NCBI GenBank assembly: GCA_030141605.1
Contig: JAQGDQ010000003.1
Location: 1,445,501 to 1,509,500, forward strand
Reading direction: 5' to 3'
DNA: 64,000 nucleotides
DNA from: Tubiluchus corallicola
Lineage: Eukaryota > Priapulida > Priapulimorpha > Priapulimorphida > Tubiluchidae
In this document: piece after piece, positions 38,901 to 64,000 of the stretch
Layout: every line of letters begins with the position of its first letter
How positions within the stretch are numbered: the stretch's first letter is position 1
Program-made: the position numbers and the translations under genes
Notes under the pieces: generated by a model
What the model was told of the DNA's origin: nothing
Databases searched by the model: none
The model's input: only the letters and a program-made list of their open reading frames with translations

Positions 38901-39429
38901 TATTTACCTCATTGAGAAGTCATATAAGAAAACCGAATGTGGCAAAGACACCTGTTGGTTCAGTATTTCATTTTAGAGTATTATTCCCGATAATTAACTA
39001 GGTTCCAGTCGCACTACTGCTATCTACGTTATATAGACCTGCATTAATTCAGGTTTGCAGAATGTGGAATTGTATGATAAATTAATTTTTGAGTTATTAG
39101 GAGCCTTATAAAAATTTAAAAATCTCCAAGTGCTTTTCGGGCTTCCTACTTTTGAACCGTACTGTCCAAACAAACAACTGCTATGCGCAACAGTTTATTG
39201 AATGTATGTCGTACAATGACGTAGCAGCTCTCATTATTTAATGTGATAGGCACTGGCAAATTGTCATGTTACTGTCAACGTCTCAGCACGGTCAAGACCA
39301 CGGCTGTACCAGTTGCGTTAGCGTTAATATTGCAAAGGAATTGCAACCGTTGATCAATAAAAAAGGGCAAAAAACGCTACGCTAGTTGAGATTTATAACC
39401 CCAATTATACGAAACTTTAACTTTGTTAA
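35950..39429. other. Intergenic stretch after the nucleoside transporter
   Basis: Probably begins with a long 3' UTR. Includes a (TTG)n microsatellite at 37867-37888. No recognisable gene. A segment at 38835-38880 weakly resembles 51525-51570. Confidence 0.5.
37867..37888 (+). repeat. (TTG)n microsatellite
   Basis: About seven TTG units in intergenic sequence. Confidence 0.9.
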
Positions 39430-40720
39430 AATTCGCGTTAGTCAATTTATTTCATTTCACTGCCCAAGACAATTAACGCTGTGAAACGTATAAAACCTGG
39501 TAAATCTGATGGAAGGGCTCGTTTTACTTTTACATTTGAGCGTATACAAGGTACACATTTATTGTCCACTCACTTACGTGTGTTTGTGAATTGTATAATT
39601 GTCCACGCATATTCGCCTGAACATCTCGCTGTATTACATGAAACCAATTCCAAAGGATACTCGTGGTAACTTGTCAGAGAAAGACAACTATAGGGGCATA
39701 TCCTTGCATGTCTTCTTTTATTGGAAAGCTACTAGATTGACTAATTCTTTGTAAATATGAAAATGCATTGTGTAATTCCGATGTACAATTTGGCTTTAAA
39801 TCAAATATATCCACTACCATGTGTACCATTATATTAAAGAAAACCGCTAAATATTACGTGCAAAATAGCTTTATAGTTAAACTGCGGGATTCTAAAATTG
39901 GATGTATAGTGGGTAACATGTAGTGTGGCAGTGCCGCATATACTGACGGTTTAAGTCTGTTAGCTCCGTATATACGGGCTTTCCAGGCCATGTTAAAAAT
40001 TTGTGAAGAATATGTCAGAAATAAGTCGTCACAAAGTAAAAAGCAAATGTATAATTTTCTATTTTCATAAGAATGTCCAAACTACTTACATCCCACAGTA
40101 AAACTCGATAACACACCGACGAAGTGCACCTTGGTACCATCTGACATTTAATTAGTCGGATAACGCTGAAATTCTATGTAAACGTGGAGATTTCATTTGA
40201 TGTGCAGACAATGTTATATGTGACTTCTCGTTTCTTAATAGTTGTATTAAGACGGAAACATTTCAATTGTACTGTCGTAGCTGTTATGGCTCGCAAATGT
40301 GGAAGCTTGATAACACTTATTAATAACCTTGATACCTCCTGGAACATAGGGGTGCGTAAATTTCGGCATTTACCATACCAAATTCATTGGTTTTTGTTAC
40401 CTCATTTATCGGGTGTGCTTCGTCCGAGTACCCAGTTTCAAATCAAATTTGTAAAGTTATTTATGTCATGTACAGTATTAACAGCAGTAATACGCTTGTG
40501 AACTTTTTTACGAGAAATGCAGGATACTCTGTGCTGTCAACATTGGGTTACAATCTGCAATTAATTAAATGTAAATTAATGATAACTACGACAAATGTGA
40601 TTATTTAAAAACTACAAGATTCATATGTAAGAAAGCTAGAGAGCTTACACGTGCTCAAAGCCTCACTCTTTCATTTGTAAAAGATGTTTCAAATGACTTA
40701 AGCAGTAGAAACTTTTCCTT
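39430..40720 (+). mobile_element. Decayed non-LTR retrotransposon, reverse transcriptase and C-terminal tail
   Basis: Blocks recognisable across several frames: IPKDTRGNLSEKDNYRGIS (39635-39700; the NYRGIS motif opens many non-LTR reverse transcriptases), VQFGFKSNISTTMC (about 39780-39825), IGCIVGNM then AAYTDGLSLLAPYIRAFQAM (39898-40000; the canonical YADD reads YTDG), and a tail with LCKRGDF, ETFQLYCRSCYGSQMWKLD (about 40170-40320) and SINSSNTLVNFFTRNAGYS. At least eight frame changes or stops; catalytic residues are lost. Older than the element at 24103-25470. Confidence 0.7.
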
Positions 40721-42089
40721 TTTAGACATTCTGAAATTTAATGATATTTTGCAATATTTATGTTGCGAATAATTTGTGATTTTGTAACGTAAAATCAAAT
40801 TCAATATCGCATATGTATGTTACTTAATGGCACATTTTGTTTATGCAAAGGCATGAGTTAACTACTAAACGACATTTTATTTATTTGTTTATCTATTTAA
40901 TTGCGTAATTAACCCAATAAATGTATTACATTTACAACAATTCGAAATAAATCGTATATATTATTATACGGGGATAAATTGCGACAAATAGTCGTCACTC
41001 GTCAGAAAATTTAATAAAATTAAATTACTAAGAGGAAGATACAAGTAACTTCATGTTAATAAGATTTAGCGTTCATTTCAGTTAACAAAGTTCACACTGA
41101 AAATATTGAAAGTGCAATATTTTACATGACCGGCGTTTTAATTTGCTTCACAACTTAACAGGAAGCCGTTTATGACAATGTTTTACATTTTCTAAATTTT
41201 AACCGATAAACCATTTATTTTTTGAGACGTTGATTGCCACAGAATAAGAATAGCTTTCAACTATTGATTACGTACTGTCTTGCACTAACATACATCTTTG
41301 TTTATCTCAAAATTCATTTAAGGCCCATTAAAAATAAATCCTTGTTTGTTTTTCCTCAACAACATAATTATATAAGTGAAAAAATCTGAACGCGACAAAA
41401 TCATTTTCGGTACAAATCTCATTAAAACATGATGATGCCAGCAAGTTTGACCCTTCGGTACCTCAGTACCTGTACGTACATTTCACTTTCTCTGAGTAGA
41501 GTAACTGTTCTACCTGAGTCATGCACCTCCTCTAACAGCTATCACTACTAGGTCGATGGCTCCAGTTGCACCCCATGCATGGATGACCACACCTGTGGCG
41601 CTTCCGAACTCAGTAAAAATTCACCAACATTACAAATTTCAAATTTGCCGGTCTACAAGAGTTGTGCTTTGAAACAAACAAGACTGTAGTAAATTATCTA
41701 AACGCAGACGATTCATACTCGTATGTTCTTAAAAGTTGCTTTTTGGGGGGAGTTAATTGAAAGAAATTAAGGTGAGGGTTGTTCTGTGCGGATCCACCGA
41801 TTCACTTGTGCGGTTTAGCTAATAACGCAACAATGAGGAAAACGAGTTGTTAGACTACCGTTCGTTGAACTATATACGGCTGATCTTCTCTTTCTAGAAC
41901 TATCTACCTACGAAACCCGCTGATCTGTCTTGTTTGTACGTTCCGTCTCTTCCTTGTCGGTTCTATGTCAAAGCGTTATGGAGAGTGCGAGACATAGCAG
42001 AAAGTAGCGAAATTTAATTGAGGGGTTAAAAACGCGTTGTGATGTGATGTGCAATAAAAATAATTAGTGACGCCCGGCAGCGCGCCAAC
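40721..42089. other. Intergenic region and presumed promoter of the mosaic gene
   Basis: A+T-rich to about 41400, then a more GC-rich portion up to the start codon at 42090. Stretch 41480-41625 has an open minus-strand frame without other support. Transcription start not determinable. Confidence 0.4.
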
Positions 42090-45000
42090 ATGCTAATAGA
42101 TGACACACGTAAACAATCAGCATGGATTTATTTACTCGCTTTACCTTTGATTATAATTGCTCAGGTAAGAATGTGATAATTAATATGAACGAAATTAATA
42201 TTTAACATCGCATTGTATTTATAGCGTTGACATTAAGACGCCTAATGATAAAAAGACGACTAAACTGAAATTGCGCTGACTGTGTGGGTAATTTTGCTTA
42301 AGTAAAATTTACACAAATGAAATTTTCGAATGATTAGTAATTAATGTAAATAATTTTGCTACGATTAATCACTCTAACGAGTTCACATTTCAAAACAATT
42401 GTTCATTATTGGAAAATATAGTGTAGTAGCCCACGTTTGGCTTTGTAATTACGAGCAACTCTAATTATACATTATGTCCATAATAACAACGCTATTGTAC
42501 ATTGTAAAATAACGCAAGACATTAATATGCATTATGATGCATTATAATTGGGAAACCTATGGTACAAGTGAAAAGTACATTGCTCTCTATTTGTTCAAAA
42601 TGCGTGACATTTTAGCTCATATTATAGGTTCGTATTGTGCAATTGGACATTTTTACATTATTTATAACATTTTTGTTGTTGTTAGGACACAAACATCCTC
42701 TTCAACGTCATTTAGCAGCGTTTTGTTTTTATTTTTACAATTGGCACAACAGCTTTTCTTTGTACTACAAATTTATATCTACTCAGTGTAAGCTAAGCTA
42801 AGGTGGTAATGATGTAACTTAGTGCATTACTATATTTGCTTAACCCACTTTGCAAAAAATTATTTTTATTACCACGATCATTGCATTTTTGTGTAGTTTG
42901 TATAGCTTCGTATAGTTTGTGCAGGCTGGTATCCAGCACTCAATAGCAGTATTATATTGATAGCCGTGACAAGACAAATAAAATGTGAAGTAACTGGTTG
43001 CGTATTTTCTTATAAAACATAACCCTGATAGGAATAAGATGCTAAACCAGTTCACATTGTAATAATGGTCAAGCTATGCCACGCATGCATTAATGTTGGT
43101 TCTGCTCACTAACATCGAAAACTTAACCTTTTGGCCTTTGTGTTCTGATTGCTGCCATTCATTACCATCACATTGCTACACTCATTTACACCCTGACAAT
43201 TAGTTTAAGCGGAAGCAGTATACAACTTTCTGATCTCTATCCGAACGGTGATAATATGAGCACGCCTTTTTCGTGGCTTATCCATCTCGAATGGACGTAT
43301 AGTAGACTTCCTTCTAAATTGTTCGCGGTTCACAGTGAGTGAAGTTCTAATAAGTTGCAACTCGGATAACGTTGCAATAATAAATGCTCGAAAATGATCA
43401 TCTGCACACAAAATTAAAAATAATAGTTTTAACAAAAAAAAAGGCGAACGAAGTCTGGCCAATTTTTCCGGGCTATAATACAAAATTTTATACATCTGAC
43501 AACACAAGGTAATAATTAACTAATACGGTAATTATCCCCCCGACGACGGTAGTCGATGTGCGTGTAGGGGATTAATCGCGCAATGTTCTTGTGTGTTTAT
43601 CTGGGCAATAAAATCAAATGGACGAGCCATAATCTCAAAATTTAGAGTGATGCCCTTGTCTAGAGTGAGTCGTATAAAAAGTTTAATAATTAGCAATCTT
43701 TCGTAGATAGCTTTATAGACGTACTTTTTCAAATGTATTATAGGTTTTCCAATTACGCCGATTAAATAAGTGAAATTGTCCTATGTGTGCAGTTTTAATG
43801 AGTTAATTTCTTGTCATTTTATTCCTAGTCCGCATCGTAGTGCTCACCATATCCTCGCCGAAGGCATTCGAACAATAAAATCGAAACTGATGAAGCCACA
43901 ACCATTGACGTTGGTACAGGGACGGGCCTGCATGGGCTAGTCTTAGATAGCCCTTGGGTTCTTACCTGAAAAGACCAAAGTTAGATAATGTAAATTATGT
44001 CGCAAGCGCAGGTGTCGAAAGAATGTAAAAAACCAAAACAGTGACTTCATGTGAGGGCTCGATCGCGTCTGCACTTACAAGCGTTGCAATAAAAATTAAT
44101 CACAATATATTTTTGATTATATATAGGAATTCCATCAACCGGAAGTAGATCAACCATTGTTAGCATTTCAGTGTCCTAGCGGATGGACTGTGCACGAAAC
44201 GTCGTGCTATAAAGTTTATACTAATAAAAGTTCATGGCGATCAGCATTACACCGCTGCAAAAGGTGAGTTTGTTGAGTGTCATGTATGTACATGATACAG
44301 TAAATACCACATTCTAGGACAGATCAATTATGCATGACTATTTAGGGCCCCTAGACTAATGAAATTATAGGACGGAGCCACCCTCTGTAACTCGCCCACA
44401 CCACCCATCTTGAATATTTTCCTAGTGATATAATTTACATAGCTTGAAGTAAACTTATTACAAGTTCTTTAAATAGACTAGAATAGCTAATAGTTTGTTT
44501 GTTTTATGTAATTTATTTTAAGTTAAATGAATTATTCAGCTATGCAAAGTATTATAGCAAATATTGTAGGCCTCTTTTAGTTAGGCCTCTCAGCCTTGCT
44601 TGAGGGGGCCTATGTTACAGCCTAGCTTTTTAAATATTGTTACACATTCAACATAAACAATCATAGGTCTGTGTGGAAAATGCACATGAATATGGTAAAA
44701 TTATTAACTAATAATGCTTTCTACACTTTCTAATGACAAAATTACACTGATGTGAGCCCTTAGAATGGCGAATCGGTGATACCGTTGTATTTTGCGTAGG
44801 CCACCTAGGATAACAGCCCATAGGATAATCCGGTCTCGACCGCTTTGCTTAATTTTTTTTATTGTTAACACTAAAATAAATTGCTTGCCGTCTGTTTTTG
44901 ATACTTTAAAAGGCAGTTTAGAAAAAAGATCGCCTGCATGTTTGTCAAAGTCTACATGCACTTCAATAAACGCATTTCTTTAACAACTCAGTATAATGTT

Positions 45001-48000
45001 TCAGAGAAATACACTGGCAAACAAGTGTAAAATTTCGTCAAAAATTATTTATCAAATGTCAGTGTCGCAAAAAAATTATGTGTCAAAGTGCCAGCTGGCC
45101 CGGTTATAGCTACAAATCATACATTGTGTGTTTCTGACTGTTATGATGCATGCTTATACATGTATGACCTTTATTCACACAATGTCATAACGTTGCATTA
45201 CAACAGGACAAGTATAATGCTATAACTTTGTTAATTCTAACTAAAAATAGTGGTTGGCAAGATAAATATTTCATGGAGAAATTTAATAATTGGGGTTGCA
45301 TAATATTATAACAGTTGAAATCCACAAAAGAAAAATTTTGAGCTGTAGACTTTTATCTTAATTTTCTTCTGCTTACTACTTAACCACCGTGCTTGCTATC
45401 AATTACACTTTAAATTTAATTTCCGACTTGGTCTAAGTTTGTTTGCTGTACTCAAAATACGTATGATATGTAAATATGTGCTAACTCACGCTTTCGTTGC
45501 ACATTAATTTTAATTTATCATACATAGATAACTTGCCTGCCTAGACCTGCACCGTGCACCGTGTATCAGTATTTTACTGAATGTACACGATCTAACGAAT
45601 AATAGCTAACTCGGGACTTGTTCAGCTAGACCGACGGCCCATTAATTTTTCGTTTTCAAACTAAAGTCAATTTTATCAATTTTTTTCGTGGCCCAGCGAT
45701 CATGAATATTTTTAGTACGTATACTATCTATCTGTACTTCATAAGCTTCATCGGCTCCGCCGTAATTTATTTGTCGGCCGTGAAAAAAAGCAAATTTTAC
45801 GCATACCTTAGTAGTTCCCAGGGCTGATGTTCCATATTATATTTTATCCCGGTGGGAAATTTGGATCTGTATTTTGGTAAATTTCTTTCTTTCACTTTGT
45901 TTTTGCCTGTTGAGTGTTTACCTTTGCAATTTACCCGATTCTTGCGTTGTGACAAACTCCAAAAAAGAATGAGGACAATTTTAGCCATTTGAGTGACTTT
46001 CAGGACAGTATCAAGACTGAGGAGTGGGGATTCATAGGCGGGTGGCAGTGACCAGGTGTTAGAGCACAAATTTTGTCTATGAATGCTTGATATATAAGTC
46101 ATGCTTTTCACAAAATTACAGTAATGCTACATCCTTCTAGGGTACCAGGTACTGAGGTAGTTCGTACTCTGTGTGGGTTAATACCTTATTATTAATGACA
46201 ATAATACACAAATTGCGTCAGAATTTGCGCTATTTTTAAGCTAGTGTAGCGTTTTCATTGAAAATACTGTGCATGTGTTTCTGAGAACCATTTAATCTGC
46301 AAGTGCACTGTACTGAATGACGTTGCCTTTAAATGTACATGAATGTGTACATAGTATTAGGCTAGTATGGTGCACTGGACCATAATTGCATAACTGTAGT
46401 ACTTGTTTCAGGCCATGTGCCATGCGTGCTATTTGGAGTGGCTGTAGTATATTGCGCAGTATAAATCACTGAACTGAATAAATATAAAATATGAACAGCG
46501 AACAACATTTAAATTATATCGATATCTAAATTGTTATTAGTAAACAAACAAGTACAACGGACATTGCCACTAAAGTCAACTTGGCTCAGTTTCTGGAGAC
46601 GTATTTAGGCTACCCGTATATCAATATAATTTAAATATTGTTCACTGTTCATATTTTATATTTATTCAGTTCTGTGATTTAGTTTGAAACCCTGAAAATC
46701 GGAAGATAAATAATTTTACCATGAGGCAAATATTAGTTGCCAACAATCTCTCCTCTCTCTCCTTCCGTTGTTCCCTTTTTCTCCTACTCTCCCCTGCTTG
46801 CTTGTCTTCTCGATCCTCTTATCTTCTCCTTCTATGGTCTCTTCTCCTTTCCTCTCCTGTCATCTTCTTTCCTTTTTGCTTGCCTTCCCTTCCTTTCTCC
46901 CCTTCGTTTTTTCTTTTTCTCCTCCTCTCCTCTCCTCTGCTTTTCTTTTTTTCTTTTCTCTTCTCTCTCCTCATTCCCGTTCAACTCATATTCATCACCT
47001 CTCCAACAGTACCAGTAATTATTCACTTTGCCAAAAAATCTCTCATAAATAGTTATGTCAGGATGGGGCCCCTAAAACTGTGAGGCCCTGGACAACTGCC
47101 CAGTGTGCTCAAGCCTTAAATTGGGCTTGTACGAATTTACAAATTTGTTGCCATATAAAATAATGTTATGCATGTTTTGTTTTGTTTTAAAGTTTAGTTT
47201 AGAGTCATCACTGGATTTGTTTTCATTTGTTGTTGTACATACTGTAATACCTGTGATAAACAATCTTTTTTACAGCTATGGCAGCGAACTTGTATATATC
47301 AACAGCTACAGTGTAAATAAAGCAATTGGGAAGATTGTAGAACAGGAACTGGTGGAAACATTTTGGATAGGTGAGAAGCTTTAACAGTGCTTTCTTGCAC
47401 ATAGCTCATTCTTTACTTTGTACTGACATATTCTAAACTGCAAAGCTTGCATGCTGGGAGTTTTTGAGGCAGACATAATGTAAACACATGTTTTAAGTGC
47501 TCAATAATTACTCTGCTATTGTAACAATATTACAAGCAGGTTATTGCCGTTAGTATTTTTGTACAGTCTGTTTGTTAGGTAACTTCTTCTAGGTATTTTA
47601 AATTTTCTGATCCGATATTTGACATTTTAAATTATTTAAGATATGATGCCATATATGTACCTCTAAGCTGACTCAGCCTAACCTCTTAACTCTGTACCTA
47701 AACTCTTAACAAATACTTAAAGCAAAGACGATGTAAAGCAATTTGCACTGATTGACAACATTTGTGCAAGTACAAACTGTACAGTCTAACACAGCTTTCA
47801 GTTAGCAAAAATAATTATTGCTAGCAAAGGCCCCGCAAAAAATTTTGCGTATAAATTCACTTATAATCAACAATGTGCGAACATTCTACCTTGTGTTCGT
47901 TTATTTACCTAAAGAAAAGCCAGCAGCAGCTTTTACTGAATTAAAGTTATAAGGTTATAAGCAGAGTATAATAATGTCGTTTGAACAATGGCTTTGCATC

Positions 48001-51000
48001 AGCAGTCTTCCAAGCAAAAAATGCCGGAACCTCTAATCAACTCGTCACAGCTCCTCAGGGTGGAGATGTCCTAAAATACAGCCCACACCATCATGTAGCC
48101 TTGTTCCTCCTCTTTCTAAAGAGCTATGTATTTCCATTCGAGAGGCCCACCATGCGGCGCTAGAACGTTTTTCCGCATGCTGTTTGATCAAAATTTCGAA
48201 AAAATCCGGAGTTTGGTCCGGGAAAACGCCCGTTACAGGATGCCGTGGCCCTCTCACGAATTCTAGATATGCCTTCTACACCCACCGCTGAACGGGCTAT
48301 CTATCCATAACCAGCACCACCCCAAGCCCATTCACATTCTCCAGAATAAGAGGTATAAGTTTTGCGAAAAACGGCCAAAAAAGGGACATTTTTGGAGGTT
48401 GGGGTTTTTTCGTCCCTATTCTTCCGGGTGGACCCGATTAAAAAATAAACCCCCAATGAGACCACACTATATCGAGGCCTTTCATTTGCTATATAGATCG
48501 CTGCAAATGCTGCCTAAATTGGCCTTTAGGTCACTAAGCTACAGAACTAAAACTTATAACATCTTTACCAGATTTATATTTTCTGTTATTTCATTACACT
48601 TGATAGTAGTAATGATTTAACAGTAATGGTAATAGTAATAGTAATAGTAGTGATTTACACATTTATGTACAATCCTTCTTTTTTCAGGGTTAAATTCACT
48701 GAGTAGTTCAGGGTTGCAGTGGTCAAATGGACAACAGTCATTTCTTTACTCAGGCTTCTGGGCACCATTGCAGCCTAATATTAACACAGGCGACTGTGTG
48801 TCATCCATTGTAAATAAGGGAAACCCCATTTGGTCTTTCACTGTTTGTAATACCTTGCTGCCTTTTGTATGTGAACTAAAGGCTTGTGCTTATGGTAAGA
48901 TTTTTTGTTTTGCATTTAGTTCCCTTATTCAGTTTACATCTATTAAAATAAATAGATTTATTGCTTGAACAGTTAATGTTTGTAAGTACTAATTCTCTTT
49001 TACACTTGAATGTGTCCTTCAAAATTAATTCAGAGTGTAGAGAAGGCTGGCTATTAATAAAGAACGAAATGTGTTTTCACCATTTTGAATTTTTATATGT
49101 GTTCTATTGTACTAGGAAGTGTGCCTGTAATAACTTTTTTGGTAGTGATGATTTGGCCTTATTTCAATTCAACTTTAATCATTCTTTAGTTTTAATTATC
49201 ATTTGTTGTTACAGGTACTTTTCGTTGTTTTAATGGCAAGTGCGTCAGTAGAAGTTGGTTGTGTGATGGACACGATGACTGTGGAGATGCATCGGATGAG
49301 ATCTCATGTGGCAGTATGTGCTATATATTATATACTGTAGTGATTATATACCATATTATATTACATATGCGAAATGTATTCTAATTATATACATGAAAGA
49401 GCCAGCTTCTAGGACTCACCATGTTTATTGTAGCCATTATGAAACTGTAAATCAAGCCAAAAAGAAGAATAAATAATATGCTAATGATACAAAGCATAAG
49501 CAATGATAAGTGAAATTATAATCTCAGTTTTGTAGTTTCAGTTTGTGCCTTTGTAACATTAGTGCATTATTTATTCTTCTTTTTGGCTTGATTTATATCT
49601 TGATAATGGCTACAGTAGCCGAAACGATCGTCACTCAGTAAACACGGTATATAGTTATGTTTATATGTGAATAACATCAGTGCATTTTAACAAAGCCTCA
49701 TGACCTCTTGCACATAACTGGAAATGGTGGCCTGAGACAAACGTGAGAAAGTGGAAAGGCTTTGTGAGCTTGATTAAATCTGTTGAAAGTTTGTGGTATA
49801 TTTCTAAATTGTGATTGATACTTGTTTTTCAATTTTTTTAAAATTTGTCTTTGGGTCAAATCTGAACAGACTCTTTCAAAAGTGAAAATTACCGATGCTA
49901 ATCTTTGAGTGCGACCTAGAAAATCATGTGGCACTGTCACAGATTCAGAACATAGTGTTCTGAACCTAACAGCTGAACTATAAGCCAAAAATTATTGAAT
50001 TTACCTTAACAATAATATTTTGCCTATTGTTTGTTTTCTCCTGAAGTATATGTACGCAATTATTCTATTTTAGTAAATGTGTGTTTGAGGCACTGTTGCT
50101 CTTTGATCTTGATATTCAAAAACATGACGTGATTTGATGCTAATTGAATTTTACACATTTTTATTGAAAAGAGACTTCCTGCGCATTTTATCAAGAAGGT
50201 GTGCGAGGCGTTATTCAATCACCAAATTTCCCAAACCGATATTTTTCCAATCTTGACTGTCGATGGATAATAGAAGCTCCTTTAGGATCAAAAGTAATAT
50301 TACAGGTAAGTGTATCACTGATTCTGTGATCTTAGCAAGCATGCATCATTGTTAATCTCTAAGTTAGAAGACAGTGAAACAGCTTAATATACTTATTGGT
50401 CTTACATAAGTTTGCTTAATAATTACTAACACATGAATGATAATTGTTTATACTACGTCATTGTACATGTTTCTTTACTGATGTTTTATATACAATTCAT
50501 TATGGTGCATATATAATCCACACTGTAACTCTGTGACTTGACCTAGTGCACAGCATAGAGAAGTTTAAATGGAAACTGCATTATTGTCAGCCCTTTATTT
50601 AGCTTTTATGAAGAAATAATGGCAGATTAAGACTGTCCATATTTAGCTTTAAAATTTAAAGGTTTCATTCTGATTCCTATCATCGAAGGTGTGAACAATA
50701 TATTTGTTCCTTTTTTTTACAAATTGTCTTGTTCAGTTTTCTATTTCACATATTTTTCTAAACTTAGTTCTCTGCATTGAAAACTAGTTATACAATATGA
50801 CAAAATGAGTTAATGCCAGACATTTGGTTAATGTTCAAGCACTTATATAAAAAATATTTGTCGATTCACTCATTAGTGTGGCAGATTTTTTGCTTTTGCT
50901 TAGTAGCATGTAGTTATGTATGTACTCCATTGTATAATAGACCATAATCTATTTCTATGTACTTCGTCTTCATTAACTACGTCATCTGTATACCATTTCT

Positions 51001-54000
51001 TCTTCCTGAGGCCTTTTTATGTGTGGCAACTGTGGCCAAAGGTTCGTTTGTCTCTTTGACAATAAAAATATAGTAATATAAAAAGTAATATCTAATTTGT
51101 GTTATAAGTTTGATCACCTAGATACTGAAAAGCAGCAAGACTATATTCATATACTTGGTGGAAGTCGGATAGATGCACTTAGCTACACAATTGATAAATT
51201 ATCTGGTTCACAAGCTAGTGCTGAAGAAAAGTACGTCAGTTATAATAATCAGATGGTGGTAAAATTCAAAAGTGATGACCAGATAGAGAAAACAGGGTTT
51301 CAGGCCTCTTGGCGGAGTGGTACGTAGTTCTGTTTAGTAATTAATCTTTGAGAGCATTACATTTACATGAATGTAAATATTTTTCTATAAGTTAATATCT
51401 AAACTTCTGGAAACTCAATCTATCACAGTCTTGACATCTTTTGTCATAGTAATTGTTGCCAAAACTAGGCACTAAATTTCTAATTAGTTCTGATTTTCCT
51501 ACCCAAGGAAATGCTGGGTAGTCACAGTGTGTGCTTAGCAATAGAACTTAAGCTTTGCTAACTCTGTTAATAATGGATGAATAACTGCTTAGAGAACTGC
51601 TTCTGGACAGTTTCATTTGCAATTTAAACATAGCAATGACACTTCATCTGGTTTAGTGTATCGTCTTAAAAATGCCCTTTGATAATGAATGATGTTCTGG
51701 TCCTGCCTCAAATCTCTACACTAAGCATGCATTGCTGTTGTTGTCTTTCGGGTTAGATAATAGCCAATTGTATAAACATAAATCTATATCTTTTCTCTCA
51801 CAAAATTTAATTATTACAACTTGATATTATACTGTCTTGTGTAATGCACGAATTTTGTTGGACACGCCTTATATTTACCTAATGTGTTCATAGTGTCTAC
51901 TGTCTATGCAAATATAGCAATTTTTATATATTCTATACGAATAGTAACATTACATATTCTGTGAACTAAGTTCTAAACTAATCTTTGCATTAATAATAAC
52001 AATTATATAAACTTTACTGTATAGCCCGTGTTGTATTGCATTTTATCAGATAAATAATAACAAGCATGCTGTTTTTTATTTCACTTTCTACTAGCTTCTC
52101 ATCATTTGTATTATTTCCACTAAGCCTAATGTTACCAGCAGGCATTTCCTGTACTGCACACAAAGACTGTACATTATTCATTGTATAATCTGCTGTAAAT
52201 AATTGCTATTTATTGCTTGCATTGTCCCCGTCATTTTTGAATTTGACACATGGTTCCGCCTATACTAGTTCAAATGTACATTGCTCGAAAGTTCTAGTTC
52301 TCACTTGAATGAGCTTATCTGCTTAATAATAATTATAAATTGAAACGGAAAGGTAACAGAACACTCATGGCTGCTTTTGCTCCAAAAATTCTTAAATCTG
52401 TAACATATGTGCATATATAAGTATATTCTGTACACAACAATAAAAAGTGTAGCCCCATTTATCTCAATATTTGTGATATTGCTTTTGATTTTATCTATCT
52501 GAAACTCCTGTTAATCACTTTGAAAACTACTCTGTGCAGCCTTTTGCATTATTTTTTGTTTAGTAAATATCAACTGTGGGAATGAAGAGCTTACAGCAAC
52601 ACAGGATAAACAGGATCTGTATTCTCCATTTTTTCCTGAACCATATTTCAACGGCATGGAGTGTGTGTATATTATCTCTGCATCTCATAATGAGTTAATC
52701 ACTTTAGAGGTAAACTTTCTTGTAAAATAGTTCAAAATAGAATATTGTTCACTGCTTTAGTTGTAGAAATGATAATTGTTTCACTATATGTATTATTTCA
52801 TGACTTTGGACTACTTTGTCATATAAATTAACTTGTCATGTAACATGATCTTAAACAACGGTAAAATTACCGAATCAGAAATCGCAATAAATTTTAAAAG
52901 TAAAATATGACTTAATGATAAAGCTAAATATTAAATATAAACTTAGCAGATAACTGGTAATCATCGACGAAGCCTTTGGGACTTTTCTCAACAGTTTTAC
53001 CTAATCCTGAAAGTTACGTTTAAGTTAGTGGTCAGTATTGTAGCTTTTTTGTAACTGCTGTTCTTGTGAACTTTTTCACTTTGAAGGCAGCTGTTGACTA
53101 GTTGATAGTGGCAGTTGATTTACTAAAGTATTAAAAACTGATGGCATAGAAAAGTATGTAGCTGAGTACAATATGACTGACCATATAGCTAACTGAGTAC
53201 AATATAATAGAACACTCTAAATTTTACAGTAGTAATGCAGAGTAGAATAGAATAGGGAAAAGCAGAGTAAAGTAGTGTAAAGTAATACAGAAATGTTTAG
53301 AGTATAGGAAAAATGCAATAAATTGAATGGAAAGAAACTAATCAAAGTGGTGTAGAATAGAATAGAGTTTATTGCCACATGCTTACATTGCAGTAAAATT
53401 GTTCTTATCCTCAAGTAATTCAAAATTCTAATTATTTTTGACAGATGAAAGTGCAGGAATTAGAGCATGTAAATGATTTTCTTCAAGTTCGAGACGGTGA
53501 TTCTCCAGATTCACCTCTTCTTTACACTTACACCGGGTCAACAGGACCGACATTCACCATTTCTACTGGTTCTAAGGTGTACCTCTTTTTCTCCAGTGAT
53601 ACAACAGTACGACAGAAGGGATTTCATTTACAGTATTCAGCAGGTACAAATCGGAGCCACATATACTATTAAACAGTAAATTAGAACTTACGATAACCCT
53701 TTCAGAAAACTTAATCAAAAGTATCGTATCTTTTTTATCTAATATATAAGCTGAAGCTGCAAACAGAGGGTATGACCAGGGATGGTGCAGTTAAATTATT
53801 TCTCAGTACTGGTACCTGTTACCGTTGTTTACTCAGAATAGAATAATAGCCCATAGCCTTGACCTTTGGTCTTTCACCTTGAACTTTTTTCATTTTTTCT
53901 TTTTGTAAAAATACTCATAGGAATATTCTGGGAAATTCTTTGTAATTTCATAAAAATAAAAATGGTAAACATAGTAAGCAAAAATAGATTTTCTTATTCA

Positions 54001-57000
54001 TAACTATCAGACTCTTTCTTCCTTTTTTATATCACTGTTTTTGTATTATGATTTTGAAACATTGCCCCATACGTGAAGTAAAAACTTTATTTTGTACTGA
54101 TTTAGAACATTGCTTTCAGGATGCAGTAACACGATTACGACAGATTCTGGAAGTTTCGCTTCCCCAGGAAATTTTGTAATTAACTATCCACCATCTCGCA
54201 CCTGCACTTGGCGAATCAGTACACCACAGGGGAAAGCTTTAGCTATGTATTTTGACCATTTTAAAGTTCAACCAGACGATTATGTTGAGGTAAGTACTGT
54301 AATAATTTTTGATCCATATTTGCAGCATTACTAGCTTTGAAGTACTACATGGACATTTAAGACTGTTTATGATTTATATCATTTATTCCATTATCTATGC
54401 CAAGTATATTCTATGTAACTATACATTCTGGTTTATGTTGCAGGTTTATGCTGGTGAAGATGACGTCAGTGGAGATCTTATACACCTTGAAAATGACAAG
54501 GGTTTTACTGGTTTTGAACCACCACCTTTATTGCTGTTCAGTAACACCGGTTCATTCTTTGTCAAGTTCAGTAGTGATGCCCTGGATACCAGCCTTGGTT
54601 TCAGTATTGTATTTTCTATTGGTGAGTGCTTGTTTAGGCCCAAATGTACCATTAATATCATTGAGCTAATGGAAAGCAATCAAATGAAAGAAATTTAATC
54701 GAGTGCAATCATCTGTAAGCCGCATAGGTAGGAGTTTACAATTCCCCACACAATTTGAATACCCTAACCCTAACCCAGCCCTAACCCTAATCCTAATTCT
54801 AACTCAAATCCTAATCTGCTTCATGAACTAATTTTTTGTGTGTGAGAAATTGTAAGCTTTAGCCCCCCGCATACTTTAAACACTTCTACATTGTTTTTTT
54901 GCAGTCTTTATTCTTTATTGTTTGGTATATTTATGCATGATATGCAATAGATGAAAAAAATTATTAGTAAGCTTGAGAAAATTTTAGTGTGGTGTAACTG
55001 GTGCCTTGCACTACACTCCCTTATTATTGCAAACAAGGTTTAACTTTCTGTTTCTTGGTTATTCCTGCTTTTTAAATGTCTCTGTGCCACGTTGCCTAGA
55101 CCCGGTCAAAAATGTCAAAGAATGATCTTTTTTGCATTTTTCAAAGGATAAACTTCTAAGAGAACAGTGGATTATTAGATGTGATCAATGAGAAAAGCAC
55201 TGGATACTAAGTTAGCATAACAGAGTTTGTTCCTTTTACTGACGTCGATTACGTGAGGCTCGAAAGGAAAAGAAAACTAAAACCTACTGCTGTTCCTTTT
55301 ACTCAGTGGTTGAATAGTAGACATGGATATTATAATCATTTAATTAATTTGTGCAAAAGCCAAAAGATGTTCAAGCACTAAAGTGTGCTTGCGAAAATGT
55401 AAGCTCAAATACAGTAATAGTAATACTAAAACAATCATTATCATTTTCAAAAATGCTGGAAAATTGCGCTCTAAATGTAGTTTTCCTGAAATTTAGCCAG
55501 AAAGGTTAATTATTATCTTTAATTACTGTGCAAGTGTTAACCAGAAAGTTGTGGTTAGCAGCTTACTTGCAGAACACAGATTTGATTTGCGAGAGTACTA
55601 GGCACCATATCATTCAAGTAGTAGCTTCATGGAACACCATACAGGTCTCGTAGTTGCTGTTTAATAAGTAAATTGATTGCTTCCTTACTTAACGTATTCC
55701 AAGATTATTTTGGCCATCTCTGATGGTCGTCTGATGTAATTTCTGTAAATTCAGCAAGGAAAATTCTGATATAATGACATTTTATTTGTGTTTTACCACA
55801 TATGCGCGTATTTTATGAAATGTGCTAGAGTTACCAGTGACATCACACCATAACTAATACAACTTATTTTTGCTTATATAAGGTTTTCTCTCAGCTTTGA
55901 ATATGATGTGGTTATCAACATTGTCTAAATTATGCTTTGACAACCAGTTATATTTTGCCTTCTGCACTGCTTTAAAACTCATGTATTACTTTTTTTATAT
56001 GAATTGTGCCTATATTCAATCACTACCTTATACTGTTACTTCATTTTATGTTCTGACTGTAAAACTGTTTGTGATGCTTGTGCATACCTGATTGTAAAGC
56101 TGTCTCAGATACATAACTTTTGATGCAAATTCGTTTATATATGTTTTGGATAGACTGTCCGCCATTAAGTTTGAGTCCTAACCACAGAGTCAGTACCTTA
56201 GATCGCAGACTCTTTACTACAGTAGGCATTGGGTGTGCACCAGGATTTCATTTAAGCAGAGGTGGTGGCTTGATGTCTGTGCAGTGCCTTCCTGGTGGGA
56301 AATGGAATGTTACAGACGTACCCCAATGTGAAGGTAAAGCATCGTTCATTCAAGTATAGCAGTATATATAAATTGTGATATTGTGAAATAAACTTGACCA
56401 TTATGAATCTTTTTAAATTCTGACCTTAAACAAGAACTTTGAAAGGTCTAAGGGGATAAAGAAACAGTTTGCAATCCATGTGGTTAGTAAATTAGTTCCC
56501 ATGAAACTTTGATATTGTTTCAAAAAGTAATTGATGGAAAGATGTGGTGTAGATTTAAATATGTTAAGCAAGTAACATGTTCAATATATTTGATTTGCAG
56601 TACATGATTTGTTTTATTTGTTTCATACATTATTTGCTAGTTTGGAAAAATATTTTGCCATCCTTATTGCTAGTTAGGTGATAAAGAAACAACATTCACA
56701 TGTAGTGTATCTGTTAATTGTGTATTACATTTTCCCTTACAAGAGAGTACAGTAAGCTTCCTTAAGTTATTTGACATCTAACAAATGAGATTTAAAATCA
56801 TGATATGGTATCAACCTCATTTTGCCGTTTGCCGCTTTTTGTAGCATTTTTTGATATCAATTTAGTTAGTCCTAATGTTATGCTACAGTTGCACTGCCCA
56901 GGTTTTATTTAATTTACTGATTTTATAAAATAATTTGCAGGAAATTACTGTGGACCTGTTCCTCGACTTCGCAATGCTGACATCATCGCCGCTACTAATG

Positions 57001-60000
57001 TTACTTTTGGAGGAGTAGCCACATACCATTGCCACACTCACCATGTGTTTCCAGATGGTACCATTGTCATGCATGCCATGTGTACTGAAGCTGGTGTTTG
57101 GGAGGAAATTGACGACTGTTTTGGTGAGTGGCATTTTTTAAAGAATTTATTGATCACTCATATTATATAAAATACACTTTTCATATCATACATTTTTTCT
57201 GTTGTACTATTTTTCTGTTGGAAACTGATTTTCCCAAATCTGTTTGGGAGACAGTCAGTCCCCGGGCTGGTTCTGTGCTTTTGTGTACACCGCTCTAATA
57301 GAGCTTCCTATCTCTTCATATAAGCCACATCCAGGATTTTTTTCACAAAATAATGGTAAAAAACATTTTTTTCAGTGTTGTTTCCTTTTTCAGATTTCAA
57401 CAGAAGTTTAGCATTAAAATTTTTACATTTTTTCTATATCTTCTCTTAATCAGAACTCCTTCCTTTTTGCTTAATACCATATCTTAATGTTAAAGTTTTG
57501 TACACGTACTTATTTTGAGTACTTTTAACTGCCATTTCTAAGCATAAAGGAAGAAGTGACATAGATTTGTATGCATTGATATTTCAGCATATGAGAATTG
57601 CAATCTAACTCCAACAATTTCTGACGGTCGTGCAGTACCGGTGTTTGGTAATGGAACAGCAGCCAGTTCTATAGTGAGATACGAATGTGATGCTGGTTTT
57701 GATTTAATTGGTATTCCCGTGACGCGATGTTTGCCTAATGGCCAGTGGTCTTCTGACCCACCACAATGTTTGGGTATGCAAATGAAATAATGATTAGTAA
57801 ACTTTGTGTAATTCTCAGAACTAGGGTAGTGATCATGGGAATGATGAAGAGTACCTTAGTCATATTTTTCTATGTTAATTGTTTAAGTAAGCTTAAGTTG
57901 CATTTTTGTATGCATAAAAGTGAATGGTTTGCCGAAATTGAATTAAATTTGTAAAATAAAATAGTGAAAGAAAAAAGATAAAGGAACATTCAGTAATGTT
58001 TGCAAAAGAGCAATGACATTAACCAGAATACTAATTTACTCGAAATTAGTATTAAATCAGACAGTTGGCTGACTATTAACTGATTTATGTTGTTATTGCC
58101 TGAAAGAATCACCGAGTTGAAGAACTGAACGGAGAGCTTTTTAAGTTCTGCTTAGATAGGTTAATCATTACAATACCAGATCATCTCTTTCAAATCTAAT
58201 ATTTTCACTGTTTGCTAGCTTGTCTGAAATACTTTTTAAATTATGGTCAAGCCTAGGTTACTACAGGACCTGTTTCTTCTCGACAGAACTAGTATAGATT
58301 GGGAAAATTATGGTATAGTATAATTTTATTGGTCAATATTTACCACTTTTGTGTACTTTAACATTTCCTTATCTTTTTTCCCAGAAATGTGCACAACCTA
58401 TTTAAGATGATTCTCATAACAATTTTGTAATGATGTATATAATTATTGACTCCAGGCAGTAAAAACATGTTACTAAGTGAGTATCGTTTCAGGAGCTGTT
58501 TGTGTCGATATTCCTTTGATTGCCAATGGCCATTTCTCTCGACCTCCGCCTTGGTACGTTCGTGAGGAAATTACTGTAAAATGTAATCTGGGGTACCACA
58601 TTAGCCATGAACAAGTAGATTATACATTTAAGGCTTGTCAAAGTAACGAACAGCATCATGGGTGTATAGGTTTGTACAATGAATTTGCTGTTTTTTCATT
58701 TTTTCATTTCCAGCTTTTGAACTTTGTCACAAGATTGATCGAAGGGTCTTTTTCGGTAACTTGGAACTAACTTTGTATAAACAATTAAACGTTAAAAATT
58801 GATTACTAAAACTTACCCCAAACAATGCTCTCAATTTTAATAATCAGTAGTACTATTATCAAAAAAAATTTTGGCTGACGCTTTCAAAAATGTTTTATAA
58901 AACGAGCATTCAGTTATTTTAGCATGCTGGCAATGCCCACTTCACTCTTTAACAGAATGAAATGTGATTACTGACATCTTACCTAAAGGAAATACTGATA
59001 GGATGTTACTATGAATACATGGAAGCTTTCACATTTTATTTATGGCACTTTGGTAATGAATTTGTGGGGATTGTTAAACCTTGTTAATTGCCTAGGAAGA
59101 ACTAAATAATATGAAAACAACTTAGACTCCTATAAAGGAAATATACAGGTCATAGAAAAGTTGACAGCATGCATTATAAATAAATACTTAGTAGCTGATT
59201 TTGTACTGAGTTACTTTCAGTCTTAATTTTTACATTTTGCCCACTACAAATATGCTCAGAGTAACGTGTTCCTTGATAACATATTATTACAAATACGTTT
59301 AGGGGGTTCTTTGGCCACTTTTATTAAAGAAAAACTGTGGCCTAAGTTTAGACTTTTAGGTTTCAAACAAATTGCAAATGAAAATTGTTTTTGCACACAT
59401 ATTTATAGTCTCTTGCTATTGGCAATGGCTACAAATATAATCAGTCTTTTTAATCATAGATAATCATAAAGCACACAGCTTTGTTTTTCTTTTAGCGTAT
59501 TTGTATATTTTGATTCTTTATAAGATGTTAGTAGTAATTGTAACAACATTAGTTGTCATCAGTGCACCTCTCTAGTGCACCAGCGGCTTTGCCTCTGCCA
59601 CATATTTCACAGGCTATCTACAAAATTACTTGTCAAGCTGTCAATTGGAAATTAACATTATTGTCATATTGGCCTTGTGAAGGAAACCGTTTCATTGTTT
59701 GGTGAACAGTATGTTAACTCTGTGTCTTTTTTGTGTGCATGTTCTGAGACTAGTTATTATTTTTTTTTAAGAGACTAGACATTTTTTTTATTATTTTATA
59801 GAAAATATCTCAGAATTTCTAAATGGCTAGCTACATACACCAATTTAAAACACTTAAGTTATTCGCTATATTATATTTGTTTTGCCTGCTTATGTAATTG
59901 TTTTTATCAAGGATTTTAATGCTACCTATTTTCGTGCTTATAGATTTGAATGAGTGTCGTATAGATAGCCCATGTGATGAAGACACTACTACTTGCATTA

Positions 60001-63000
60001 ACACTGAGGGTAGTTATGAGTGCAAATGCAGGCCAGGTTACCAGTCTATATTAGGTAAGTTTTATTTTTGAAATGAGCACAGAATGTAATTCCAGGGAAA
60101 AAGGTTAAAATAAGAAATGTCTGTAAAGCATTAAAGCAAAAGCCAAGTCTCTTGGTCTAATGAGCTCATTTTAATATTTGAAAAAAATGTTAGAAAACTT
60201 CAGCAATGAAAGTGTGACAAATGCCTTGTGTATTTTATTTATGTATTCACACCTGGGCACGTTCATTTTGAATGAAAAATGACATCATCGACTTACCGTG
60301 CAGTATAAACACTTGTCCCGCTTGGTGTTTGAGCAAACTTCTTGGAGCTGCAGTTACTATTATCAACTACAAACAATCTAAAATGTTAGATGAGAGAGTA
60401 TTAATGCTATTGTTTGCTTTTTTATGAATCCTGTTGCCCACTGTGTAAGGAAAACCAGTTACCTGTAATAAATGGTAATCTCCAAATCAGCTAGTTAACA
60501 CCGACAAAGAGCAAAATAATTATTTTAACAAGCTAAAACTGAACTCTATAAGCTAAGCAAACCGCCCTGCACCTTCTGTTTGCTCACAGCCTTGCGGAAT
60601 TACATGTTTATCTGTAATTGTTTTATCATGTGTATTACTTACATATTTTGAGTTATAATCCTGTGGATTAAAACCATGTAAGCACTTTAAAGGTGTTGTT
60701 AATTGATCCACTGAATAATTTTTACAAGAACACTGTTAAACACAAAAGGTTTATTCAGCTAGCCTAGAATTGCAGTTTCTGAATGAATTGCAATATTTTG
60801 TTACGTGTGCCTTCATGCTGTCCACAATGCAGGCACCATAATTTTTTCAAATACAATGATGTGCAAACCTCATAAAATTAAACATGACAATTTTTAATTG
60901 ATCATTTTACTGGTGTGTTTTGTTTTAGAATGTGGTTCATATAAGTTTTCGCAGAATGTTGGCTTATATACTCCTGATCGTCTTTTTGTTTCCGGGGATG
61001 ATGGCCTACACACCAAAGTCGTAAGCAAACTCTTTGCTTTCTTGCTTTATATGCCTGTTATGTTTTACCGAGTTATTATAGTTCCACTTTAATGAAGAGG
61101 AATTGAAATTCATTGTCAGCATTATCTGAGAATGATGGTAAATGTAATGTGGTCAATCAGTATATGTCATATTGTGACTGATAATTTTCATATGAATTTG
61201 TTGTTTTCTGCTCTTAAAAGCTACCTATAATTGTAATTACATTGAAGTTGATTATATTGCTATTCCAGGACATAGGAGTAACAAGTGCTTATGGATGGTG
61301 TGCACAACAGTACGGCATCAAATCTGTGACTGTAAGTTTACATTTTATGTTAATGCTTGTACCATTCATTGAAATTGTCAGCAGTTTCTTGAATTTTGAA
61401 ATACTCAGCAACTAGGTATATTTTTTTAAATGTATGAAGAATTGTTTGCTAGTTTTAAATGTGATAAATAATTTTGTATTGCAGGTAGATTTAATGGCGC
61501 CAGTCATAGTAGATGAAATCCAATTAATGTCTGGTCATCGAAGAGATGGAACTGTTGGTTATGCATCTTTATTCTCACTACATTATAGCAATGATAATGT
61601 TAAATTCACACCAACGGTGAACGTTACAACATCACAGGTATTCGTTGCCTACAAGTTCAACAAATTTTTAAGCAAAATGGCTGAAAAATAACTAGAAAAC
61701 AGAAAGCAATGATGGCATGTTATAGCTACTAGGGATGCAGAATGTGTTTTTTTATGTTTTTTGTCACAGATTCTTTTCTGATATGACAGTTTTTCACAAT
61801 TATTTGAAGTGACTTTCAGTAATGCATTAATCACTAAATAACTGAATTGAAAATCTAAGTAAACTGCCTCTGATTAATCTTTTTTCTTTCATCTCGCAAG
61901 AAATTTTCCAAAGTATGAGTAAATACTTTATGCACCCATTACGCTGTTCCCATTCAACAGTTGATTTCATTACAAGAGAGATGCTCTGAGAAATAATGAC
62001 TTTTATAAGTTTAAATTTCACTGTATCTTTATCATCACTGGCATTGCTGTTATAGCTTAGCAAATGAGGAAATCCACTAGGTTAATTCAATCTAAAACTG
62101 AAATGCTTGGCATCTTTAGTTTTAATGTAAACATGTTGAATATATCACAGCACTGCAAGTGCTGTGATAGTGATATATATTTTTATACAGTTTAACACAC
62201 TGCAAATTGATCGACCACATGTCAAGGCTTGCATATATTTGTGTCATGACCAGAACTTAGTTTTTATCAAAGGGGCATCTTCTAAAATGAGACATTAGAG
62301 TGGCAGATAGTTGTAGTTGTAACCACGGTCAGATATGTATGTATCCTCCCACCACAGTTTTCTGGTCAGTCACTCATCTATTTACTTTTCATACTTGTGT
62401 TGCTTGGCTAAGTTGCTAAGTACAAACTGTGAGCAGCTCTTCCCCTTGCACTTGAATGCCAGAATTTTGCAAATTTAGTGTCATATTCTTCATCAATACT
62501 AACAGCCTGATTATCTAACATTCATATGTTGCTAATACACAGAAATGCTTTGCGTTTTGGAAAAGTTTCAATTCAAAAATGTGAAAATTATGTAACTTGT
62601 CCAAATTGTGCTGCTGCAGGTGGCATTTTATGTTTTTTGTGAAAGTTTTAGGTGTTGTACTTAAAGATTATGACAATGATCTTGTTGCACTTTTGTTTGC
62701 AGACCTTTGTTATTATTGGCTTGTTGGATGGCCAGGAAGGGAGTTTCATAAGTTTGCCTCAACCTATAGAAGGTCGATACATTAAGTTTGTGATTGAAGA
62801 CTATATTGGCTATCCTTGTCTGCGATTAGATTATATTGGTTGTCGCAAGAAATCATGTAGCAGTAAGTACATTTGCTTTGTCTATTTGTATATGTCACTA
62901 TAATGAAAAAACTTAATGTTACAGTCATTAGCTCAGAAACCGTCCGCCAGTTGTCAACTAAAAAGTCATACCAGCTTGAATAGCTCAAATTAATTGTACT

Positions 63001-64000
63001 AGTTAATAATAGTTACTAAGTGACTCTTTCGTTTGCTTTCAGTTTTCATAGATTCCGTTGCTTTGTTGTACTTAATAATACTCTGTTAGTAATAATCTAG
63101 CAATAATGCTCAGAATAACGCCCAGCAATCATAATATTTAATTAGCAAAGGCTCCATGAAGTTGTGTTTTTTGCCTATTTGTTATGTTAATGGTGGTTCA
63201 TACAGACAGGCTTGATAAGCCAGGTTCATGGGTAAGCTTCCCTTAAGTATTGTACTAAAGGCTTTTACCACTCCAATGGTTATAAAATGATGTAAACTTG
63301 CCAATCTTTGTGTCATATTATGAAGTTTACTTTCAGAGTGTCTTGATATCTGGGGTTGAGACGGTTTTGTTGTTCATTTAGGTATAATTGTAAACAAAGT
63401 TTATTTCATTCTAGCAAGCCGAAGCTGTAATATAGACAATGGCGAATGTGACCAACTCTGTGAAACTGATGTGAATGGTATTAAGTGTGCTTGTACTCCT
63501 GGCTATGCATTATATACATTTAATGGTACAGAGGGACATTATCTTCCGCCAGGCGAAACTGGGTTCAAGGATCAGGATCAGTATAGAATTGGACGTTCTT
63601 GTGTTCGTAAGCAATTTTTAAGTTGCTTGTTGGTATTTTTTGTTGCATGGAAAAGCTATTGGAAAAAAATGACAAAACTGGTCTGCTATTTAAAAATCAA
63701 TAAGCTGGTGTTGTCTGGACTGAGCCTACACAATTTCATTAAATAATGACAGAAAAACAACAAAAGAGGTTTGAGTTTTGTGGAGGAGGCCTCAGGCTAG
63801 TGTCATGAATACTTAAACATATTTTTGATTACTATGATCTAATAGGTGTAGCTTTTGTTGGATTTAATTCTGCAATAGCAATTATTATTTAGGACGTTCT
63901 TGTGGGACAGCTCTTATATCTCACTTGGACAATGGAGCCGTGCTTGGCATGTCATCGAATTACAGATTTGGTGACCGCATATTCTTCCAGTGTGATATAG
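42090..64000 (+). CDS. Extracellular mosaic protein: CTLD, LDLa, CUB x3, sushi x4, cbEGF, F5/8C, EGF, sushi (continues off right edge)
   Basis: At least 22 exons, about 1085 aa visible: 42090-42164, 44127-44263, 47276-47370, 48688-48894, 49215-49313, 50172-50305, 51109-51319, 52564-52709, 53445-53643, 54120-54289, 54444-54621, 56154-56333, 56941-57123, 57588-57773, 58493-58669, 59944-60054, 60929-61020, 61269-61331, 61485-61637, 62703-62862, 63415-63606, 63893-beyond. Exon 1 gives a signal peptide ([14 protein letters not shown]). A long-form C-type lectin follows (FWIGL, LQWSNG, six Cys); it has QPN at the sugar site but WSF instead of WND, so calcium binding may be impaired. Then LDLa ([13 protein letters not shown], six Cys with the first in the preceding exon). 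The three CUB domains each come from two exons joined by a phase-0 intron and each lacks the second Cys pair. Four sushi domains are one exon each, the fourth without the usual Trp. Calcium-binding EGF starts DLNEC. F5/8C ends [14 protein letters not shown]. Next are EGF with a long insert before its last Cys and a partial sushi. Role in recognition or adhesion is inferred; no transmembrane part is visible. Confidence 0.92.
46463..46680. repeat. Foldback element in the mosaic gene
   Basis: Arm 46463-46525 and arm 46618-46680 are near-perfect reverse complements over about 63 bp (about 4 mismatches), separated by about 92 bp. No clear target duplication or superfamily signature. Located in the intron between 44263 and 47276. 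Confidence 0.8.
46744..46985 (+). repeat. Pyrimidine-rich (CT/TTTC) tract
   Basis: Low-complexity polypyrimidine stretch of about 240 bp in an intron of the mosaic gene. It yields Leu/Ser/Phe-rich frames that are not genes. Confidence 0.9.
48000..48480. other. Compositionally distinct block of unknown nature
   Basis: About half G+C in a window that is about one-third G+C, rich in CpG and with no recognisable domain in any frame. It lies in the intron between exons ending 47370 and starting 48688. It could be an inserted element of unknown family. No terminal inverted repeat or tail was found. Confidence 0.4.
48622..48650 (+). repeat. (AATAGT)n short tandem repeat
   Basis: About four units of a GTAATA-type hexamer just before the exon at 48688. 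Confidence 0.85.
49430..49613. repeat. Foldback element with 57-bp arms
   Basis: Arms 49430-49486 (starting GTAGCCATTATGAAACTG) and 49557-49613 are reverse complements with about 6 mismatches. Similarity extends outward to ACCATGTTTA on the left and the reverse complement of TAAACACGGT on the right, so the original element may span about 49417-49648. Lies in an intron of the mosaic gene. Confidence 0.8.
53220..53370 (+). repeat. Degenerate AGTAGAATAGAAT-type minisatellite
   Basis: Interspersed GTAGAATAGAATAG and AGTAGTGTAAAGTAATAC units over about 150 bp upstream of the exon at 53445. Confidence 0.7.
54757..54820. repeat. Interstitial telomere-like repeat (CCCTAA)n, degenerate
   Basis: Reads CCCTAACCCTAACCCAGCCC then TAACCCTAATCCTAATTCTAA. 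The first two units are perfect CCCTAA (TTAGGG on the other strand), with decay to CCTAAT/TCTAAC rightwards. It lies in the intron between 54621 and 56154. Confidence 0.8.
55000..56150. other. Intron of the mosaic gene, no feature seen
   Basis: Between the third CUB and the first sushi exon. No coding blocks, repeats or transposon ends recognised apart from the telomere-like patch further left. Confidence 0.5.
62144..62168. repeat. Short perfect hairpin
   Basis: ATCACAGCACT, GCA loop, AGTGCTGTGAT: an 11-bp perfect stem in an intron of the mosaic gene, within the F5/8C-coding region. Confidence 0.8.

Follow-up and report, generated by a model that had tools for sequence, protein, structure and literature searches.

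A giant modular receptor gene of the priapulid Tubiluchus corallicola with a domain composition close to that of Drosophila Uninflatable

Here, we describe a gene for a giant modular membrane protein that begins at position 42090 of a 64,000-nucleotide stretch of the 343.5-Mb genome of Tubiluchus corallicola (Priapulida) (contig C1915, positions 1445501 to 1509500, + strand; from here on, the window), to which 40 kb of downstream sequence was added. The window holds the 5' third of the gene, which runs for about 30 kb beyond position 64000. Based on its architecture, we have good reason to think that the gene belongs to the family of Drosophila Uninflatable (Uif), that its product would be apical, and that an array of 14 EGF repeats in this product would restrain or redirect Notch. 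An initial annotation of the window had described the visible part as a single-chain mosaic of C-type lectin (CTLD), LDLa, CUB, sushi, calcium-binding EGF (cbEGF), and discoidin domains with no recognized named counterpart and had proposed it as a candidate for an undescribed recognition molecule.

Domain composition and likeness to Uninflatable

Most of the domains named in the initial annotation matched Pfam families on raw open reading frames (ORFs), and all of them did so on the joined exons: Lectin_C (3e-15), Ldl_recept_a (1.6e-11), three CUBs (2.8e-21, 7.3e-20, and 2e-15), Sushi (1.2e-21, three stretches), EGF_CA (5e-11), and F5_F8_type_C (1.8e-10). Together with the exon model, these matches bear out the mosaic from 42090 onward, on the + strand and in the order described. 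The N-terminal part consists of a leader, the CTLD, the LDLa module, three CUBs, four sushi or sushi-like exons, a cbEGF, a discoidin domain, and an EGF. This part is followed by four sushi or sushi-like units (exons 22 to 26), an HYR-like unit and an HYR unit (exons 27 to 29), a sushi-like exon, an unmatched region, three ephrin-receptor-like exons (5.1e-36), a PAN-like exon pair, and a SUEL-like domain. Next come 14 EGFs, a pentraxin/laminin-G-like domain (4.4e-13), an HYR (6.1e-9), a sushi-like exon, and a second unmatched region, while the C-terminal part comprises ephrin-receptor-like repeats (4e-24), a threonine-rich linker, two EGFs, a transmembrane helix, and a 90-residue tail. The extension past 64000 recommended in the initial annotation led to both a membrane anchor and a tail.

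The EGF total is 18, of which 17 were recognized by their six-cysteine pattern and one is the long-loop EGF of exon 21; 14 are contiguous. Only exon 62 encodes a strongly hydrophobic segment (mean hydropathy, 3.2); a weak one (1.74) fell inside a stretch that was later cut from exon 38. The sushi count is five to ten, with three exons singly above the cut-off, two more stretches, one exon below the cut-off, and four units assigned by eye. Two HYR units were detected by Pfam, i.e., exons 28-29 (3.7e-5 for the piece, without a single passing stretch; 2.4e-8 in a paralogue) and exon 53, while a third, in exon 27, was assigned by eye only. The PAN-like pair (0.013) and the SUEL-like domain (0.0078) were below the Pfam cut-off. 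The latter is matched across its three repeats by a rhamnose-binding lectin of known structure (1.9e-6), single repeats giving about E 1. We note that the two unmatched ectodomain regions (L001:6733-7501, window positions 70633-71401; L003:2257-3258, 86157-87158) each precede ephrin-receptor-like repeats; a repeated unknown domain ahead of these repeats was suspected and dropped, as the two regions align poorly (E 0.078).

In the available portions of the published accounts, Uif is listed with 18 EGF, one CLECT, three CUB, eight CCP, two FA58C, and three HYR domains, and its intracellular residues 3440 to 3548 served as antigen (Xie et al. 2012, PMC3340373); it is also described as having a continuous array of 14 EGFs (Zhou et al. 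2020, PMC7444548). With Uif as described in these portions, the T. corallicola protein shares one CTLD, three CUBs, sushi, discoidin, and HYR modules, and 18 EGFs with 14 contiguous, as well as a similar length and one transmembrane helix with a short tail at a similar place (near residue 3440). Because this domain set closely matches that of Uif, and because the gene has two sister copies in the same genome, it most likely represents a type of receptor that is already known. Judged from its architecture, the gene is a probable, not a proven, member of the Uif family.

Several observations weigh against this assignment. Compared with the published list for Uif, the protein has one discoidin domain instead of two, with no second one turning up in the joined-exon Pfam scans of the gene; it has up to ten sushi-like units instead of eight CCPs and only two HYR units by Pfam instead of three. 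Separate scans of three of the four sushi-like units assigned by eye (exons 23-24, 30, and 54) yielded no sushi match at E 1. The Uif list, which may be incomplete, names no LDLa, Ephrin_rec_like, PAN-like, or SUEL-like module. Finally, the likeness is drawn from the published composition, not from domain order, an alignment, or a tree, and no entry named Uif was among the matches listed in the protein searches made here, which covered no insect protein collection. The statement in the initial annotation that no named protein with this order was recognized is superseded to the extent that the composition of the full gene matches Uif, the order of Uif lying outside this comparison. Similarly, the proposed undescribed recognition molecule gives way to a match with a protein that the available text characterizes as apical, transmembrane, and developmental in function. 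An already characterized orthologue with the same architecture had been named as the finding that would speak against novelty; Uif is such a protein as far as domain composition goes.

SVEP1/polydom is a large secreted protein with sushi, HYR, ephrin-receptor-like, EGF, pentraxin, and VWA domains, and the gene could instead encode one of its relatives, with which it has sushi, HYR, Ephrin_rec_like, EGF, and pentraxin/laminin-G-like modules in common. However, the T. corallicola protein differs in having an LDLa module, a discoidin domain, and, at its N-terminus, a CTLD and three CUBs, no VWA turned up in Pfam scans of raw ORFs and joined exons, and its transmembrane helix is 72% identical in one paralogue (C529) and weakly matched, at 31%, in the other (C268). 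We therefore regard an SVEP1 relationship as quite improbable.

Three gene copies in one genome, in a non-arthropod host, are new; Uif is known from the fly and was termed "a conserved insect protein" in the accessible part of one report (PMC13178913). Of 43 papers that name uninflatable, the titles of the 40 listed indicated no homologue outside insects, and no paper was found linking uninflatable to SVEP1, nor one linking "protein uninflatable" to mollusc; neither result implies absence from print or databases.

Gene model, paralogues, and continuity of the chain

The gene was delineated with a home-made exon-chain model that uses splice-site weights and codon usage. As the weights were trained on this same gene, its scores are contrasts and not probabilities: the anchor-free chain scored 800 on 40000-92500 (+) compared to 26 on the reverse strand of the same stretch and 63 on 1-40000 (+), which is a shorter stretch. 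The anchor-free run had 66 exons, of which 62 were common to the anchored model, and the model start fell at exactly 42090, as in the initial annotation, without an anchor on exon 1. Three exons (65720-65746, 79107-79139, and 92424-92590) were removed because they had no counterpart in C529 or C268, and the start of exon 38 was moved to 75005, cutting 14 residues that the paralogue lacks; this trim lies upstream of the 14-EGF array and leaves its count unaffected. The corrected model has 64 exons from 42090 to about 94405 (+) and 3538 residues, with 21 of the about 64 exons lying wholly inside the window. All 63 introns are GT-AG, with a median length of 560 bases, and 42 of the 63 are in phase 1, in line with the exon-shuffling pattern noted in the initial annotation; the phase counts did not change with the trimming of exon 38, the final edit. 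For CUB1, the splice sites of exon 6 and the acceptor of exon 7 were placed manually, using the sequence itself.

Exon 1 and the last exon (94308-94405) are the least certain parts of the model. The leader is hydrophobic by eye, has no 19-residue window above 1.7 on the Kyte-Doolittle scale, and was matched in neither paralogue in the exon comparison. The last exon has a weak likeness to a paralogue tail (35% over 26 residues, E 11) and a fitting frame. The basis for exon 63 is a brief alignment with the tail (45% over 20 residues, E 0.15), and exon 59 was matched in neither C529 nor C268.

The two sister copies lie on contigs C529 and C268. A 500-residue query covering the CTLD, LDLa, CUB1, discoidin, and EGF modules found the same module order on C529 and, more weakly, on C268. 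Comparing the uncorrected 66-exon model with the paralogue DNA at E 0.05 gave 60 (C529) and 45 (C268) collinear exons; for the corrected model minus its last exon at E 0.5, the numbers were 61 of 63 exons with 55% identity and 46 of 63 with 41%, all of these being counts that stand without a shuffled control. C529 has counterparts of the PAN-like and SUEL-like exons with 61-69% identity; none turned up in C268, in which exons 35 and 39 are about 870 bases apart.

In C529, 27 of the 59 measurable junctions have no room for an intron (gap of <45 bases); 24 of the 27 close to within three bases, and 20 are adjacent (C529:549228-557542, L013). Seventeen of the 27 could be measured on C268, and all 17 have an intron there; for this reason, the introns are most likely ancestral, a block of them having been lost in C529. 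We note that losses that are adjacent and near-exact are as expected from recombination with cDNA. As a result of the intron loss, C529:553952-557602 forms a single 1217-codon ORF over exons 32-52, in which ephrin-like repeats, EGF repeats, and the laminin-G domain are read in one frame. This is direct evidence that these exons form one polypeptide in C529. As a separate observation, a 228-codon ORF between two paralogue exons (C529:547856-548539; L012:9856-10000 and L013:1-539) looks reverse-transcriptase-like by eye; a Pfam scan of its first 48 codons gave no match.

The splice sites were predicted from genomic sequence with a home-made model, and several were set by hand or by homology, so that two or more adjacent genes might have been fused by the exon model. 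Against this, the frame is open through 63 GT-AG introns, with no internal stop and no second strong transmembrane segment across the corrected model, the only such segment lying at the end; moreover, the order is identical in the two paralogues, and the C529 ORF spans exons 32-52. Based on the open frame, the paralogues, and this ORF, separate genes were rejected, and fusion is highly unlikely. For the window exons, the open frame and the order shared by three copies support that they form one chain, as the initial annotation had proposed.

Proposed role of the protein

The predicted product, about 3540 residues long, is a single-pass membrane protein that combines a very large modular ectodomain with a short tail. 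In the accessible parts of two reports, Uif is placed at the apical membrane of tracheal cells and meets Notch on Sara endosomes via four EGF repeats, with no role in classic surface Notch signaling (PMC7444548), while its overexpression antagonizes Notch in cis at a step requiring the Notch ectodomain (PMC3340373); the accessible text of a third states that wrapping glia growth needs Uif (PMC12867482). By analogy, the T. corallicola protein would most likely sit at the apical face of epithelia, where its N-terminal CTLD, LDLa, CUB, sushi, and discoidin modules would contact the apical extracellular matrix or adjacent cells, and its uninterrupted 14-EGF array could engage Notch in cis or on endosomes, restraining or redirecting its signaling. 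The most likely role by this analogy would be in apical epithelial adhesion or matrix contact, together with modulation of Notch through the EGF array.

Alternatively, along the lines of the recognition molecule suggested in the initial annotation, the protein could be an immune pattern-recognition receptor or lectin that binds glycans and lipids of microbes through its lectin, CUB, and discoidin modules. Lectin-type modules are present, although the SUEL-like one is weak; the SUEL-like exon is common to two of the three copies, and there are three gene copies. The CTLD points elsewhere. WND is part of the calcium/sugar site of C-type lectins and EPN or QPD is likewise a calcium-site motif, classical sugar-binding members combining the two. 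Here, WND is replaced in all three copies (WSF in this gene and WAF and WEL in the paralogues), whereas the EPN position has QPN in this gene and QPD in the paralogues, which makes glycan recognition by this domain doubtful. Because WND has been lost in 3/3 copies while the acidic motif of LDLa is kept in 3/3, the CTLD is more likely to be protein binding than sugar binding. In addition, the module order is kept between copies that are only about 55% and 41% identical, unlike in a fast-changing repertoire, and the domain composition is that of Uif, a developmental protein according to the available text (PMC3340373, PMC7444548). Insect CTL-X lectins, which include furrowed and among which Uif is filed, also join a CTLD with CUB, CCP, F5/8, and EGF modules and act mainly in growth and development in the portion of the survey available, the gene here being far larger (PMC10341621). 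Immune recognition is not supported by these data and appears unlikely, and the mosaic need not be read as an immune novelty.

Within the Uif-family reading, the PAN-like/SUEL-like cassette sits just ahead of the 14-EGF array. Outside insects, the family might comprise a set of three giant receptors; two of them would have acquired or retained this PAN-like and rhamnose-binding-lectin-like cassette, which would make a Notch regulator controlled by a glycan ligand. This elaboration is weakened by the SUEL score below the Pfam cut-off, the weak single-repeat lectin matches, and the fact that SUEL was not reported in the paralogue's ORF (Pfam, E 0.01), and we hold it to be doubtful at best. If the assignment to the Uif family is true, a full-length Uif-like gene outside arthropods, in three copies, would suggest that a Notch-linked apical receptor predates insect tracheae, and the ancestral role of this receptor type would become testable.

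Exons in the window and other elements

All exons described here are on the + strand. Exon 1 (42090-42164), with the start codon and a putative signal peptide, comes from the unanchored exon chain and is weaker than the other exons. The CTLD is divided among exon 2 (first part, 44127-44263; paralogues 52% and 39% identical), exon 3 (middle, 47276-47370; matched in the paralogues), both found by the exon chain and joined-exon Pfam, and exon 4 (end, 48688-48894; Lectin_C 1.3e-4 on the ORF and 3e-15 joined). Reading through 38701-48700 in three frames revealed no Pfam match; lectin exons 2 and 3 are thus visible only once joined. Exon 5 (49215-49313) is the LDLa module (Pfam 1.1e-11 on the ORF), the acidic motif being kept in both paralogues. 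Exon 6 (50172-50305; splice sites by hand; paralogues 53% and 50%) and exon 7 (51109-51319; ORF Pfam, acceptor by hand) are the halves of CUB1 (2.8e-21 joined). CUB2 is formed by exon 8 (52564-52709; Pfam on ORF and joined exons, unanchored exon chain) and exon 9 (53445-53643; Pfam on both; 79% identical in C529), and CUB3 by exon 10 (54120-54289; Pfam on both) and exon 11 (54444-54621; joined CUB3, 2e-15).

Sushi 1 (exon 12, 56154-56333; 2e-4) and sushi 2 (exon 13, 56941-57123; 1.5e-4) are above the Pfam cut-off, as is sushi 3 (exon 14, 57588-57773; 2.5e-9), while the sushi-like unit 4 (exon 15, 58493-58669; 0.02) is below it, is 43% identical in C529, and was not found in C268. The cbEGF is exon 16 (59944-60054; EGF_CA 5e-11 on joined exons). 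Parts 1 to 4 of the discoidin (F5/8 C) domain (1.8e-10 joined) are exon 17 (60929-61020; unanchored exon chain, joined Pfam, paralogues), exon 18 (61269-61331; contiguous with exon 19 in C529), exon 19 (61485-61637; Pfam on ORF and joined exons, paralogues), and exon 20 (62703-62862). Exon 21 (63415-63606; paralogues 54% and 38%) is an FXa-inhibition-type EGF with a long last loop that matches FXa_inhibition at 5.8e-8 (ORF) and 5.1e-7 (joined), both under the family cut-off. Exon 22 (sushi 5) occupies 63893-64000, runs to 64078, and is based on Pfam on the downstream piece, the exon chain, and the paralogues. The read-through frames of this downstream piece (L001) gave only sushi and ephrin-like Pfam matches.

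Elsewhere in the window, we identified a reverse-transcriptase domain (24612-25271, - strand; RVT_1 8.2e-13), a probable nucleoside transporter exon (34919-35230, +; Nucleoside_tran 1.1e-13), and a possible SLC12 cotransporter exon (17288-17554, +; 3.1e-6, 26.9 bits with the cut-off at 27). Searches of the genome for Chitin_bind_4, the molluscan haemocyanin beta-sandwich, the annelid linker, and ependymin each gave 0 matches, but their controls were silent as well, so that none of the four demonstrates absence; a lack of ependymin would be in keeping with an ecdysozoan. COX1 was not found, although its control was detected in 8 of 14. For two muscle-myosin exons, no chain was clearly the nearest, scallop and squid entries ranking among the lowest of the muscle myosins. 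Taken by themselves, the Chitin_bind_4 result and the intron density make a non-arthropod host no more than probable. In the assembly, uninterrupted ferritin ORFs are present at C1:32419-32823, C1:49980-50384, and C2294:28999-29409; the one tested (C2294) is closest to prokaryotic ferritins, and some contigs may therefore be bacterial. Identical scores recurred at repeated or mirrored positions on C31, C1798, and C2237, on C1338 and C1677, and on C917, suggesting that the assembly contains duplicated haplotigs or inverted duplications.

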